The notes under the pieces: generated by a model | What the model was told of the DNA's origin: nothing | Databases searched by the model: none | What the model saw: the letters and a program-made list of their open reading frames with translations, nothing else | Source: Colwellia demingiae | GTDB taxonomy: Bacteria; Pseudomonadota; Gammaproteobacteria; Enterobacterales; Alteromonadaceae | Assembly (NCBI RefSeq): GCF_007954275.1 | Contig: NZ_VOLT01000005.1 | Location: 310,001-374,000, forward strand | Length of the DNA: 64,000 bases | Reading direction: 5' to 3' | Program-made: the position numbers and the translations under genes | Shown: positions 51,193-56,768 of the stretch, piece after piece | Layout: every line of letters starts with the position of its first letter | Position numbering within the stretch: the first letter of the stretch is position 1

Positions 51193-51549
51193 TTAAATTC
51201 TGAACATGCGTAGTGATAAAAAAATTATCACTAATGTTAAACCGATAAAGAGCAATGCTAAAAAATGATATAAACTTCGTTGCACTTTAATTTTAGCGCG
51301 TATAAATATCCCTTTTGAGCCTTCGTCGTTCCTTGGGATATTATGAAAAAGAGAAAGTAATATATTAAATAGTAGTAACCATATCAAGCCAACAAAACTT
51401 AACATAGCATAAGGGTTGGTCGACTGCGTTGGCAAAGATGCTTGCAGCACCTGGGTAACAATAATTGCAACAAGGAGTGCTGCCACTATGTAAGTCAACT
51501 TACGAAATGGTTGCAACTTTGAAGATAGCTTTTCTAATATTTCCAACAT
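51193..51549 (-). CDS. Small membrane protein of unknown function
   Basis: This 118-residue protein has three predicted membrane helices (about 18-37, 47-66 and 94-115) separated by a polar stretch with charges (NIPRNDEGSKGIFIRAKIKVQRS). I do not recognise the family. A TTG two codons earlier is in frame, but the ATG at 51549 is preferred; both have weak ribosome binding sites. It lies between trpA and the CsrB-like RNAs, convergent with trp and sharing its terminator. Confidence 0.78.
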   Translation of the reverse strand: MLEILEKLSSKLQPFRKLTYIVAALLVAIIVTQVLQASLPTQSTNPYAMLSFVGLIWLLLFNILLSLFHNIPRNDEGSKGIFIRAKIKVQRSLYHFLALLFIGLTLVIIFLSLRMFRI

Positions 51550-51677
51550 GTACAACCCAACTCTGAAATGACTCTATGATTCACGAAGAAGTGATGTTCA
51601 AGACTTACCATACTGACTGATAATACTTTGCCTTAGTAAATTATAGCGATAAACGAACAAATATTATAATCTAAACA

Positions 51678-51704
51678 GAAAAAATGCGACTCAATGAGTC
51701 GCAT
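51678..51704 (-). terminator. Terminator of CsrB-like RNA copy 1
   Basis: ATGCGACTCA / TGAGTCGCAT stem, single-base loop region, with six A on the left giving the U tract of the leftward RNA. Confidence 0.88.
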
Positions 51705-52326
51705 TTTTATAACTAGCTTATACGGTGCGTCCTGCACACATATTAATGATCTCATTTCTTCCTTGAACAACTATCCTTAGTATATCCTTTATGAATCCAT
51801 TCATATCCATGTTGGGTAACGATTACGTTCCCTATTCAATCATCCATAATTAGTGTCTTCCTGACGCTATTTCCTTTAAAGCTTACAATTCAACAAGTCC
51901 GTGTTTTTTCCTTTAGTTAACCTTCCTTAATTAACATTCCTTGGTAATAGTCTTCCATTACTACTGTCTTCCTGACCTTGGTTATCCTCACCAAGTCACA
52001 TCCTTGTTCATATCATCCATAGTGGCATCCTACCACTAGACTTCGTCCTTAAAGCCTCCTTGTTAAACCCTATTAAAAATAACACTAACGTGTAATTCCT
52101 AATTAAAGCATCCTGCTTTAGGTTTTCCTTTTATCTTATACAAGCATCCTTACTCACATCTTCCTTGAATTGCATCCATTGCATCCTATCTATTCAACTC
52201 TATCCCTGAGTTATGCTACCGTCCTCGGTAAGTCCTTAAGTTACTAGATTCCATCTTAGTAACGGCATCTTCCTTAATCGCATTACAAGTAACGCCGAAG
52301 CCCCCTGCTCCTTGTCTTCCTGACAT
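51678..52326 (-). ncRNA. csrB: CsrB-like regulatory RNA, copy 1
   Basis: Read on the minus strand, this 650-base stretch contains about 36 GGA triplets, many as AAGGATG, AAGGAAG or CAGGAAGAC, the CsrA-binding pattern of CsrB/RsmY-type sRNAs, which soak up the translational regulator CsrA. It ends in a perfect terminator (51684-51704) with a U tract and has no convincing open frame. The likely start is just after a TATTAT box at 52332-52337; a GacA/UvrY-type site lies about 160 bases further upstream. A second copy with the same 5' and 3' sequences follows. Both transcript ends are predictions. Confidence 0.87.
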
Positions 52327-52331
52327 GATTG

Positions 52332-52390
52332 ATAATACTCCTAAATATAGTTTATCGAAGCGGGTTAATAACAAAGATCCAAATGTAAAA
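52332..52390 (-). promoter_or_regulatory. Core promoter region of CsrB-like RNA copy 1
   Basis: On the minus strand CGCTTCGA, TATTTAGG and TATTAT are arranged as in the copy 2 region (53164-53220), while the surrounding bases differ. Conservation outside the RNA suggests a shared promoter. TATTAT is the best -10 candidate. Confidence 0.5.
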
Positions 52391-52491
52391 ACAATGTAAC
52401 AATAGGTTTTTTGAATTTATCTTTATTAATCAGCACTATATATTTTATTTTTTTATGTTTTAGCGAGAATTGCCAACATATCTCACGCTGA

Positions 52492-52509
52492 TGTAGGATA
52501 TGTCTTACA
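52492..52509. promoter_or_regulatory. GacA/UvrY-type upstream site, copy 1
   Basis: TGTAGG-ATATGT-CTTACA fits the palindrome TGTAAG-N6-CTTACA known upstream of Gac-controlled sRNA genes, with one mismatch. It lies about 165 bases before the predicted RNA start and is preceded by bases (TTGCCAAcATATCTCAC) conserved at copy 2. Confidence 0.72.
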
Positions 52510-52624
52510 AAGAATATAGAGGTTTGTCAGTACTATTTTTTGTCTGGGAATGTACCAAAATAAATTTGGTTCAAAATGGGGATTATCGAATAAATTTTTA
52601 TAACTGTATAATTTATTAAAACCT

Positions 52625-52652
52625 ATAAAAAATGCGACTCGTTGAGTCGCAT
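52625..52652 (-). terminator. Terminator of CsrB-like RNA copy 2
   Basis: ATGCGACTC / GAGTCGCAT stem, the same as copy 1 except for the loop, with six A to its left. Confidence 0.87.
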
Positions 52653-53157
52653 CTTTATAACTAGCTTATATGGTGCGTCCTGCACACATATTTAATGATC
52701 TCATTTCTTCCTTGAACAACTATCCTTAGCATATCCTCTATGAGTCCACTCATATCCATTTAGAGAAACAATTAAGTTTCCCATTTAATCATCCATAATT
52801 TTCGTCTTCCTGACATTGGCTATTATCACTAAGCCACATCCTTCATTCCTTTGTGGTTTCCTACCACTTGACTCTATCCTTAAAGTCTCCTTATCAAACC
52901 CTATCCTGAATAACACAAAAATATTATTTAGAATTAAAGCGTCCTGCTTTAGGTTTTCCTTTTATCTGACACAAGCATCCTTACTTATATCTTCCTTGAA
53001 TAGCATCCATTGCATCCAATTTTCTCAACTCAATCCTTAAGTTATAGTTACCGTCCTCGGTAGTCCTTAAGTCACTAGATTCCATCTCAGTAACTTGCAT
53101 CTTCCTTAATTGCATTACAAGTAATGCTGAAGCCCCCTGCTTCTTGTCTTCCTGACA
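52625..53157 (-). ncRNA. csrB: CsrB-like regulatory RNA, copy 2
   Basis: A paralogue of the downstream copy, about 530 bases on the minus strand with about 27 GGA triplets by eye. The first 60 or so bases (TGTCAGGAAGACAAG, AGGGGGCTTC), an AAAGCAGGA block and the last 100 bases (GTGTGCAGGACGCACCATAT..., terminator) are nearly the same as in copy 1. The middle is shorter by about 120 bases. It should sequester CsrA like copy 1. An open frame on the plus strand at 52816-53040 is a by-product of the base composition. Confidence 0.86.
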
Positions 53158-53323
53158 GGAATAATAATACCCTAAATATCACTGCTCGAAGCGAGTTAAC
53201 AAATAAGATCCAAATACAGAAATAACATTACGATAAATAACAACATTTAACACTTAACAATCAACATGTTATATTAATAGTTCAAATGAAGCAGCAGAAA
53301 TTGCCAATATATCTCACAGTGAC

Positions 53324-53339
53324 GTAAGACATGTCTTAC
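53324..53339. promoter_or_regulatory. GacA/UvrY-type upstream site, copy 2
   Basis: GTAAGACATGTCTTAC is a perfect 16-base palindrome matching the core TGTAAG-N6-CTTACA motif, about 170 bases before the predicted start of copy 2. The bases TTGCCAATATATCTCAC next to it are shared with copy 1. Confidence 0.8.
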
Positions 53340-53342
53340 AAA

Positions 53343-53437: not shown

Positions 53438-54109
53438 TTATTCTTCTTTATCTCGATAATGAACCATCACAGAGCCACAGACATTACCTACTGTGACCTC
53501 TTTTACCGTGTGATAATCAACCTGTTTGAAGAACTCTTTAAATTTTCCTGATGTAGCATACACTGCGACACCCTCGCTATCAGGGTGTTCATCAAGAACT
53601 GTATTTACAGCAGCCATTAAATAATGACCAAAACCATGCTGCTGATGCAGAGGATGAACTGCAATAAAGGATAAAAAGTGAAATATTTTTAAAGGTACAG
53701 CAGCCAATACGGTTTGCTCTTTTTGCATCATTTGTTTGGTACTAAAGTAACCGGCATTCAACAGCATCTTTAAACGCCAATGCCAAAAACGATCACTTGC
53801 CAATGTTTCATCAGGGCTATTAATACAAGCAACACCAACCATAGCCTCACCTAGATACAAACCAATCATAGGCTGTTTAGCTTGCCAGAAAGCATTAAGT
53901 TCTTCTCTGATAGCACCACGAAGACGTTGTTCATAATCTTCTTTATCGCTTTTAAAAATATCTAAAAAAACGGGATCATCATGATAGGCTTGATATAAAA
54001 GTGACGCGGCTAATTTCAATTCATGAGCACCCAAATAAGTCGCTCGAATATTAACGTCTTGATTTATATTACTATCAACACTACTTTCTACCGATACTGT
54101 CTCACTCAT
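53438..54109 (-). CDS. GNAT family N-acetyltransferase
   Basis: This 223-residue protein has the acetyl-CoA-binding motif of GNAT enzymes: FLSFIAVHPLHQQHGFGHYLM, with Q-x-x-G-x-G in the pyrophosphate loop, and a C-terminal strand GVAVYATSGKFKEFFKQVDYHTV. The first 25 residues are polar and probably disordered. The acceptor substrate cannot be predicted. It is a single-gene unit upstream of the regulatory RNA locus. Confidence 0.85.
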   Translation of the reverse strand: MSETVSVESSVDSNINQDVNIRATYLGAHELKLAASLLYQAYHDDPVFLDIFKSDKEDYEQRLRGAIREELNAFWQAKQPMIGLYLGEAMVGVACINSPDETLASDRFWHWRLKMLLNAGYFSTKQMMQKEQTVLAAVPLKIFHFLSFIAVHPLHQQHGFGHYLMAAVNTVLDEHPDSEGVAVYATSGKFKEFFKQVDYHTVKEVTVGNVCGSVMVHYRDKEE

Positions 54110-54276: not shown

Positions 54277-54669
54277 TTAATTTACTATAACCTTATCAAT
54301 TTTTGAATAATCTCCACCATTTCCAGTTTCCACTAGTTGACCATTAATAAATTGGAGGAAAGTACATTCATCTTTTGTCGTTAAACCATCTTTATGTTTG
54401 CGTTGGGTACGATAATATAGAACGCGTACTGTGTTATCGCCATCGGCATAAGTCTCAGAAAAATCAGAAACGCCTAACTGTTCTTGTATATCCATAAACG
54501 AAGTGCCTAATTGTATTTTGGCAATTTTCTTACGATTTTTATAAGTTCGGTCTTCGTTATCTCCAACAAAACCATGATCCATTCCATCATCATTTATTTT
54601 AATAACACAGCCAGATAATGTCATAGCTAGTGGTACTGCAATCAGTAAAGCTATTATTGATTTTTTCAT
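54277..54669 (-). CDS. DUF3192 lipoprotein
   Basis: This 130-residue protein has a lipoprotein signal peptide with lipobox L-S-G-C (C21 or so). The following domain (KIQLGTSFMDIQEQLG, VLYYRTQRKHKDGLTTKDECTFLQFING) is DUF3192, a BamE/OmlA-like small fold. The frame extends upstream to 54744, but the ATG at 54669 starts the signal peptide and has AGGAAA at the right distance. A paralogue without a lipobox is at 62890. Function unknown. Confidence 0.88.
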   Translation of the reverse strand: MKKSIIALLIAVPLAMTLSGCVIKINDDGMDHGFVGDNEDRTYKNRKKIAKIQLGTSFMDIQEQLGVSDFSETYADGDNTVRVLYYRTQRKHKDGLTTKDECTFLQFINGQLVETGNGGDYSKIDKVIVN

Positions 54670-54862
54670 GTCTATATTTCCTAAGGTATTTTTAATATTT
54701 ATTATAATGCTCAAATGTATTAAAGCAAAAAACAAGCCAAACACCTAAGTAATTGAATTTAAATAATTTTAAAAATTAAAGAAATGTAAGCCAAGACATC
54801 TTTAGCTATATTGGCTAAAATATAGTTAAATTAATTAATCATATTCAAAATCAGTAAGTAAA

Positions 54863-55252: not shown

Positions 55253-55852
55253 TTATTTTTCACTCACTAAACTTTTATGAGTTAACTGATTTATAAATTC
55301 AGCTAATGAGTCGCTGAGTTTTTTATGCGGCTTACAACCAACTTGTTCGACCCAGACTTCTCCACTACTATTATCTACAGAAATAATCATATCGTCCTCA
55401 TCGGTAACAGCGAAGAAAATAGTTTCACCTTGCTTTAATCTTTGCTTCATTAAAATATGACCGATGATGTTTTCTTGTAACCGTTCAAAGTCTTCTTTGT
55501 TCCAAGCAAAGAGAAGAGATAATTCACCTTCATCACACAGCGCTTCAATATCGCCACTATAAAAAGTGGTGAAATATATTTTAATATCTGGATGTAATTC
55601 AATGTTTAATGCTGACTCGACATTTACAAAAGAGAGTGCTTCTTCTTTTTTATCAGTTGATTGCTCACTTTCCATTGCAACGGCTTGCCAGTAATGGCGA
55701 CTAGTATCATGTGAACCTAGCTCACAAGGTGATGGCCATAGTTCATCATGTTCTACTGTAGGAAGATGCCCAAATTGCTCGATGTGTTGTTTACTATAGT
55801 TTTTACTGAAGTTCAAAAGCGCTTGCGTTAAAGTTTTATTTGTAGATGTCAT
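55253..55852 (-). CDS. syd: SecY-interacting protein Syd
   Basis: This 199-residue cytosolic protein binds SecY and may check translocon assembly. PSPCELG, FYTTFYSGDIEA-like FTTFYSGDIEAL, LSLLFAWNKEDFERLQENIIGHIL and the C-terminal LAEFINQL match E. coli Syd. The frame is open to 55915 and would overlap queF, but the ATG at 55852 gives the family start (MTSTNKTLTQALLNF) and has AAAGGA upstream. It diverges from queF as in E. coli. Confidence 0.94.
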   Translation of the reverse strand: MTSTNKTLTQALLNFSKNYSKQHIEQFGHLPTVEHDELWPSPCELGSHDTSRHYWQAVAMESEQSTDKKEEALSFVNVESALNIELHPDIKIYFTTFYSGDIEALCDEGELSLLFAWNKEDFERLQENIIGHILMKQRLKQGETIFFAVTDEDDMIISVDNSSGEVWVEQVGCKPHKKLSDSLAEFINQLTHKSLVSEK

Positions 55853-55907
55853 ATAAAGAAAAGATCCTTTAAAATAGCGAGATACTAGCTCACTACTGAA
55901 AAATTTT

Positions 55908-56768
55908 ATGGCCAATTATCAAAATGCAACGGAACTCAGCAAATTAACACTGGGAAAAAGTACACAATATTGCAGCGAATATACCGCAGATTTGCTACAA
56001 GGAGTACCTAGAAGTTTAAATAGGGATGACTTAGCACTAAATCAAAGCAATTTACCTTTTGTGGGTGAGGATGTTTGGTATGGATATGAACTATCATGGC
56101 TAAATGAAAAAGGTAAGCCCGTTGTCGCTGTTGCTGAATTTCGCTTTGCTTGCACCAGTGCCAATATTGTTGAGTCAAAGTCGTTTAAGCTTTATTTAAA
56201 TAGCTTTAATCAAACACGGTTTGCCAGTGTTAAAGACGTTGAGCAAGTATTAACTAAAGATCTATCAAAAATAGCAGGCTCTGAGGCAAACGTAAATTTG
56301 TTTGGTGTTGATCACTGTCCTGCCTTAGATATTGCCAAAAAAGCAGATAAATGTATTTGTATCGATGGGGAAGATATCAGCATAGATAACTATCAATATG
56401 ACGCACAATTGCTAGCTACAGCACAAGATGAAACAACAGGTACTCAAATTGAAGAGCATTTAGTTAGCCATCTATTAAAATCTAATTGTTTAATAACCAA
56501 TCAACCAGATTGGGCAAGCATCTATATCCATTACCGTGGTAAAGCTATAGATCACTCAGCACTGTTAAAGTATTTAATATCTTTTCGCCAACACAATGAA
56601 TTTCATGAACAATGCGTCGAAAGAATCTACTGTGATTTACAGCAATTTTGTCAACTTGATGAGTTAACCATTTTCGCACGCTATACTAGGCGGGGGGGAT
56701 TAGATATTAACCCGTTCAGAAGTAGTCATACTGACCAAGCTCCTTTTGCCAGAACATTACGCCAATAA
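55908..56768 (+). CDS. queF: NADPH-dependent 7-cyano-7-deazaguanine reductase QueF
   Basis: This 286-residue long-form QueF makes preQ1 from preQ0 in queuosine synthesis. The catalytic cysteine is in LLKSNCLITNQPDWASI; the substrate-binding E and ESKSFKLYLNSFNQTRF motif is in the N-terminal T-fold half. Long-form QueF (about 280) is typical of gammaproteobacteria. It is in the conserved syd-queF-(...)-ppnN-xni neighbourhood. Confidence 0.96.
   Translation: MANYQNATELSKLTLGKSTQYCSEYTADLLQGVPRSLNRDDLALNQSNLPFVGEDVWYGYELSWLNEKGKPVVAVAEFRFACTSANIVESKSFKLYLNSFNQTRFASVKDVEQVLTKDLSKIAGSEANVNLFGVDHCPALDIAKKADKCICIDGEDISIDNYQYDAQLLATAQDETTGTQIEEHLVSHLLKSNCLITNQPDWASIYIHYRGKAIDHSALLKYLISFRQHNEFHEQCVERIYCDLQQFCQLDELTIFARYTRRGGLDINPFRSSHTDQAPFARTLRQ

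Follow-up and report, generated by a model that had tools for sequence, protein, structure and literature searches.

Two tandem CsrB-like RNA genes in Colwellia demingiae and the variable length and number of their counterparts in the genus

Two paralogous, non-coding and GGA-rich RNA genes are located on the minus strand of Colwellia demingiae at positions 51678-53157 of the window, by which we mean the whole stretch of 64,000 nucleotides that was analysed, and judged from sequence comparisons both very probably encode CsrA sponges of the CsrB type. This assignment follows from observations that are all independent of the number of GGA motifs, namely the spacing of a GacA/UvrY-type box, the synteny with syd and queF, the recurrence of this neighborhood or promoter at many hits of the Rfam CsrB model within the family, structural covariation, and the presence of CsrA, UvrY and BarA homologues in the genome. 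Box distance, synteny, covariation and regulator homologues also lend support to the initial annotation, in which the genes were taken for CsrB/RsmY-type RNAs that would titrate CsrA. As a whole, the data are with high probability explained by two CsrB-type RNAs that titrate CsrA, are most likely switched on by BarA-UvrY and descend from a local duplication. It is well supported that a known kind of regulator is found here at its expected place; its size is unusual, and the way in which its length has changed is of interest.

The two RNA genes

Copy 1, the upstream one, comprises ~531 nt with 27 GGA motifs (52626-53157, minus strand, through the T-run of the terminator) and copy 2, downstream of it, ~648 nt with 36 GGA (51678-52325, minus strand). 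Two paralogous minus-strand RNAs of about 530 and 650 bases, with some 27 and 36 GGA counted by eye, had been proposed initially, and the recount gave the same numbers. These are far above the values of 1000 dinucleotide shuffles (15.2 expected for copy 1, sd 2.6, maximum 23; 19.1 for copy 2, sd 2.9, maximum 29), and elsewhere in the 64 kb the richest 540-nt segment, searched on both strands in steps of 50 nt, holds 13 GGA. The G+C content of the RNA genes (0.37-0.38) is close to that of the window (0.37).

The 5′ ends of both copies, which were placed by a conserved TATTAT and GTCAGGAAGAC, have GTCAGGAAGACAAG-AGCAGGGGGCTTC in common, as expected from their description as near-identical. Each gene ends in an intrinsic terminator with a 13-pair stem and a T-run (52626-52656 for copy 1 and 51678-51708 for copy 2, both minus strand); the terminators had been described as the same, and the stem is indeed shared, with differences in the loop and in one outer stem base. 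Over their alignment the two copies have a mean column identity of 85%. The divergent middle that had been pointed out exists, and can be narrowed down mainly to one block of ~111 nt (51866-51976, minus strand) that is present in copy 2 only and is flanked by direct repeats of GTCAGGAAGAC. In C. marinimaniae and strain TT2012 the corresponding region forms repeated units of 147 nt.

No protein frame shared by the relatives was found among the four longest frames of each of 19 copies, and a protein-coding reading, for which such a conserved frame had been named as the decisive sign, was rejected on these grounds. A 74-aa frame opposite copy 1 corresponds to frames of 32, 35 and 76 aa at the like place in genomes G009, G012 and G011, respectively, and its counterpart is absent from the four longest frames of G018 and G035. 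A plus-strand reading was likewise rejected, because the long-stem terminators, TATTAT and the 5′ motif fit the minus strand only; the plus strand also holds two short-stem terminator-like sites, and the box, being a palindrome, gives no direction.

Predicted structure and covariation

When folded singly, both RNAs were more stable than their shuffled versions (copy 1, -136.1 vs. -106.8 in 40 shuffles, sd 5.2; copy 2, -161.5 vs. -128.6 in 40 shuffles, sd 4.4). In these single-sequence folds 21 of the 27 GGA of copy 1 and 21 of the 36 of copy 2 are fully unpaired (6 and 15 are not), and 11 and 14, respectively, lie wholly within hairpin loops. Across eight singly folded copies the mean unpaired probability of GGA was 0.74-0.83 compared to 0.54-0.66 in shuffles, and the consensus structure of 23 selected copies leaves 707 of their 740 GGA unpaired, with 338 placed in hairpin loops. 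A location of GGA mostly in paired stems, which the initial annotation had named as speaking against its reading, is thus not what the predicted structure gives.

In the alignment of the same 23 copies, 30 of 114 pairs have changed on both sides and 97.6% of the cells can pair. None of 500 shuffles, which ignore relatedness, reached the observed values, and slid partners, a control that keeps relatedness but is biased towards a structure obtained from that very alignment, gave 34-43% pairing. The covariation holds for the long-RNA group only, since all 23 copies, out of 51, stem from that group, with giant, divergent, cut and short copies left out. That the region represents a repeat-rich spacer or the remnant of a protein gene rather than a regulatory RNA, as its internal repeats and low G+C content (0.37-0.38) might suggest, is extremely improbable in view of the covariation, the terminators, the conserved box and 5′ end, the matches in all 39 genomes of the genus and the lack of a shared frame.

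Promoter region and regulatory circuit

A GacA/UvrY-type box, conserved in an alignment of 39 of the 51 copies, is located 184 nt before copy 1 (TGTAAGACATGTCTTACG, 53323-53340, minus strand) and 185 nt before copy 2 (TGTAAGACATATCCTACA, 52492-52509, minus strand), both of the type TGTAAG-N6-CTTACA with one mismatch each. In the 42 of 51 copies with a hit of the search motif, the distance from the start of the box to the conserved 5′ motif is 177-188 nt. Genome-wide, box-like sites are barely more numerous than those of a reversed-pattern control (16 vs. 12), a tally that we consider uninformative, and the box is therefore evidential only by its place and conservation. The box of E. coli csrB (TGTGAGAGATCTCTTACA) is found at -191, and its 18 letters are identical to those of the box in genome G028. 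The presumed -10 elements (TATTAT, consensus GTATTATTAATCATGTCAGGAAGAC) are located at 53164-53169 for copy 1 and 52332-52337 for copy 2 (both minus strand), with no matching -35 in the scan; promoter-like sites listed by the sigma-70 scan do not coincide with the start of either RNA, and their overall number shows no excess (9 vs. 8.8 in shuffles).

A sequence-only promoter model reaching from the box to +30, which is not wholly independent of the RNA as it includes 30 nt of it and which is blind to a copy with a very different promoter, matched 38 of 39 genomes of the genus and 78 of 98 genomes of the family. Although built without the Rfam CsrB hits of other genera, it ends between -400 and +80 nt of the start in 22 of 31 such hits (raw count); in the other nine it is not found nearby. 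Upstream of copy 1, TAACATGTTGATT (53259-53271) resembles CAAAATGTTGATT before E. coli csrB (L111), and we take it to fit the IHF consensus.

The genome contains one CsrA match (65 aa, matching solved CsrA chains with a best E of 1.8e-30). Homologues of UvrY and BarA are also encoded, the former with 64% identity across 215 residues and the latter with 44% across ~907 residues, nearly full length. We infer that both genes are transcribed, each from its own promoter region and up to its own terminator, and that a BarA-UvrY-type two-component system would most likely activate both of them, with UvrY binding the box ~185 nt upstream. The GGA motifs in the hairpin loops and single-stranded linkers of each RNA would then bind many CsrA dimers, and sequestration of CsrA by both RNAs would release the mRNAs to which it is bound.

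The initial annotation had suggested dosage or differential sensing for the duplication, and either may apply. In the latter case the two RNAs would be specialised, with diverged promoters feeding different inputs into the same CsrA-binding body. The copies are 0.68 identical in the promoter, compared to 0.85-0.89 in the body, and according to the available text the csrB genes of S. oneidensis differ in growth-phase behaviour (PMC3171408) and csrB1 of Vibrio tasmaniensis is VarS/VarA-independent (PMC6262261). However, both promoters retain the box, the next element and their spacing, orthologous promoters drift as well (0.83-0.85 between G000, the genome of the window, and G009), and UvrY is the sole input identified; differential sensing therefore appears possible but not probable.

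Genomic neighborhood and relation to E. coli csrB

The pair is located beyond trpA, in agreement with the trp neighborhood given in the initial annotation; copy 2 and trpA are separated by a 120-aa frame (51193-51555, minus strand) that is 52-84% identical in 15 genomes of the long-RNA group and has no Pfam match. On the other side follow two conserved neighbors, a GNAT-type acetyltransferase (53438-54109, minus strand) and a DUF3192 protein (54277-54744, minus strand), then a 123-aa frame, syd (55253-55915, minus strand) and queF (55908-56768, plus strand). E. coli K-12 has the order yqcC, csrB, syd, queF, in which queF is read opposite to csrB and syd, and the relative orientation is the same here. 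Judged from this arrangement, the locus represents the positional orthologue of E. coli csrB.

E. coli CsrB forms hairpins and ends in a terminator. It resembles the RNAs described here in being GGA-rich, in its UvrY-type box and in adjoining syd and queF in the same orientation, but it is encoded by one gene of 369 nt with 22 GGA, whereas two genes of 531 and 648 nt with 27 and 36 GGA are found here, so that the expectation of longer and GGA-richer RNAs holds. Unlike in E. coli, the GNAT and DUF3192 genes and the 123-aa frame are situated between csrB and syd.

In 18 of the 39 genomes of the genus a delimited csrB was found to be accompanied by syd and queF (tblastn at 1e-8, ~4 kb on each side or up to the contig end), and species with short RNAs have mostly other or unrecognised neighbors. 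From the 31 Rfam CsrB hits in other genera of the family 20 loci were opened; in 10 of them GNAT, syd and queF are arranged and oriented as in the window (L117, L122, L123, L125, L126, L128, L130, L131, L132, L136), and 10 are without this neighborhood; a box with at most two mismatches is present within 400 nt upstream in 18 of the 20 (raw count).

Rfam models

At the gathering threshold, no Rfam family was found in the window or in 15 loci of the genus, and the CsrB and CsrC models, which had been suggested earlier as a test, yielded sub-threshold matches only. The best of these belong to the unrelated families RmaA (29.7 bits) and STnc250 (28.5 bits) at the terminators, and we take them as chance matches of a permissive sub-threshold search; CsrC scored 27.5 bits against a threshold of 61, with an E of 6.9e-6 that applies to this short search, and CsrB reached 19.9 bits (threshold 71). 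E. coli CsrB scores 380 bits with RF00018. At E up to 0.001 the CsrB model matched in 27 of 98 genomes of the family, none of them above threshold, and in none of the three genomes of the genus within that sample. As RF00018 exceeds its threshold in 0 of these 98 genomes, even at loci with the same neighbors and box, the reach of the model seems to be limited.

Neither RNA attains the gathering threshold of RF00018 or RF00084, and they are not filed as members of these families. They share with the CsrB class GGA motifs that are mostly in loops or single strands of the predicted structure, a non-coding sequence with a terminator, a GacA/UvrY box ~190 nt upstream and a host genome with CsrA, UvrY/GacA and BarA/GacS, and with E. 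coli csrB the csrB-syd-queF neighborhood in the same orientations. From these comparisons we conclude that the pair can be regarded as csrB by position and promoter and as CsrB-like by predicted structure, below the Rfam threshold.

Copy number and length in Colwellia

A DNA similarity match at E 0.001 or better was found in 39 of 39 genomes of the genus, that of the window included. The comparison of copy numbers that had been proposed was carried out with the promoter model and gave two copies in 14 genomes, among them that of the window, and one in 24; the second copy is thus real, and the tandem duplication claimed at the outset stands. A third match in G011 is a contig-edge piece, and G029, the only genome of the genus without a match, is 87% complete with a DNA hit that ends at a contig end. 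An assembly artefact is disfavoured because the pair is present in the one-contig genome G009, which we take to be Colwellia strain 34H. The 51 copies delimited by script come from 37 of 39 genomes (those of G023 and G029 are cut at contig ends) and range from 307 to 1185 nt and from 15 to 68 GGA, the values for the cut copy G011_c2 being too low.

In a tree of promoter and 5′ end, from which G011_c2 was left out, copy 1 of the window's genome clusters with its counterparts in G009 and G011, and copy 2 with those in G009, G035 and G012 (ND2E), both with high support. Like copies thus group across genomes, which indicates that the pair is older than the split between G000 and G009; a local duplication in the ancestor of this Colwellia group would have given rise to the two copies. 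Between these two genomes copy 1 is 97% identical over the first 300 nt and 94% over the 3′ part, and copy 2 is 91 and 96% identical, respectively. Gene conversion left no clear sign in G000 and G009, where the orthologous copy is nearest in all three segments, or in G035 and G012, where the nearest sequence is the orthologous copy of some species. In G018, G038 and G022 at least one segment is nearest to the genome's own other copy, and gene conversion between the copies is possible there; the copies of G038 also group with each other in the tree.

It could be argued that only one CsrB works and that the other copy is a decaying duplicate, as single-copy relatives (G005, G007, G014, G008) are found within or beside the group and copy lengths vary, the shorter one being upstream or downstream. 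The box, TATTAT, terminator and hairpins are nevertheless kept in both copies, and the 91-97% identity and well-supported clustering of like copies of G000 and G009 imply that both have been kept since before the split, which makes decay very unlikely.

The longer RNA is upstream in some species and downstream in others, and the copies are ~10 kb apart in G012 and ~33 kb in G017. In G038 a twin pair (L044:5474-6942) is found in a stretch of 7 kb in which a search for ten flanking proteins gave no match, and may have either moved or been mis-assembled. Second csrB-like copies without the usual neighbors in the fetched stretch also occur in G033 (L049:1131-1437, minus strand) and G027 (L058:3464-3893, plus strand).

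Large single copies and GGA totals

The longest RNAs are encoded by single genes. In C. marinimaniae MTCD1 (G005) the 147-nt unit is present 4.6 times in one csrB of ~1185 nt that contains 68 GGA (L050:4549-5733, minus strand), and the hadal strain TT2012 (G014) has one of ~1028 nt with 53 GGA and 3.3 copies of the unit (L052:4163-5190, minus strand). Recombination between internal GTCAGGAAGAC repeats may have altered RNA length and site number.

Per genome, there are 46-80 GGA in the 14 two-copy genomes (51-80 without G027). Among the single-copy genomes, TT2012 has 53, C. marinimaniae 68, C. piezophila (G007) 36 and G008 27, and the other 19 that were counted have 15-28. In a tree of flanking proteins (23 of 39 genomes, each with at least three of six proteins) C. 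marinimaniae and TT2012 are sisters next to the two-copy genome G022 (92/88) and the single-copy genome G007 (C. piezophila; 93/90), with two-copy G010 (GAB14E) outside (98/97). Both a late loss in the hadal strains and an earlier loss with re-duplication in G022 fit this tree.

It is tempting to speculate that the number of CsrA sites per genome is what is selected, evolving interchangeably by duplication or by recombination of whole blocks at the GTCAGGAAGAC hairpins. In the hadal strains one csrB would have been lost and the other grown to 1.0-1.2 kb and 53-68 GGA, bringing the total back into the two-copy range, perhaps as part of an adaptation to cold and pressure. We consider this rather doubtful: its likelihood is lowered as the tree also allows re-duplication in G022, and strict compensation of GGA is disfavoured because C. 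piezophila and G008 miss the two-copy total. According to the available part of PMC7542103, MTCD1, TT2012 and C. piezophila are piezophilic and 34H, GAB14E and ND2E piezosensitive; among these six strains one copy coincides with piezophily and two copies with piezosensitivity. Piezophilic and piezosensitive strains are thus a place to ask if sponge size has changed with lifestyle.

Comparison with known Csr RNAs

Twin csrB genes, GacA boxes and multiple copies are already published, and the study of Kulkarni et al. (2006), which is reported to predict Csr RNAs, may already list some of the genes described here. In the open-licence literature searched, we found no account of a Colwellia csrB, of a single csrB of 1.0-1.2 kb with 53-68 GGA and 147-nt repeats, or of any Csr RNA in which internal repeats have been amplified. 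In the available part of PMC5471319, predictions of small RNAs are compared to the genome of 34H.

A parallel is given by Shewanella, where, according to excerpts of PMC3171408, CsrB1 and CsrB2 are encoded by two neighboring genes, which adjoin each other in S. putrefaciens CN-32. Both genes have a GacA box, and both are UvrY-dependent in S. oneidensis; they differ from those of Colwellia in their length (420 and 421 bp) and, in MR-1, by a transposase gene between them. Csr RNAs of a cold-marine relative are also described for Pseudoalteromonas fuliginea in the accessible text of PMC11882849 and PMC9927453: Pf1 has 25 GGA (21 according to the older of the two papers) and a GacA-type sequence (CGTGAGACATCTCTTACA), Pf2 has 21 GGA and Pf3 has 9, and Pf2 and Pf3 were gel-shifted with CsrA. 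In contrast to the pair described here they contain fewer GGA, and Pf2 and Pf3 are located in separate intergenic regions; per that text, Pf1 and Pf2 have no significant matches outside the genus. Vibrio csrB1-4 likewise represent several copies that arose by duplication, but these have been relocated in the genome and form no tandem pair, as far as the available part of PMC6262261 goes.

Colwellia serves as a model for life at low temperature and in the deep sea, and its predicted Csr circuit is brought into view here though Rfam misses it. The genus offers a natural series of sponge RNAs, from ~310 to 1190 nt and from 15 to 68 GGA in one or two copies, with which one could measure how regulation depends on the number of CsrA sites in each RNA and in each genome.

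In other genera, 12 of 15 opened loci, which were picked largely for two promoter matches and give no frequency, have two GGA tracts on one strand, with GNAT beside 9 of the 12. Twin csrB genes may thus be recurrent or old in this family, in line with Shewanella (PMC3171408, available text). In 10 of 11 loci of this set (within L143-L156, e.g. L152:5541-7691) the two tracts are separated by a frame of 153-388 aa that is read in the opposite direction.
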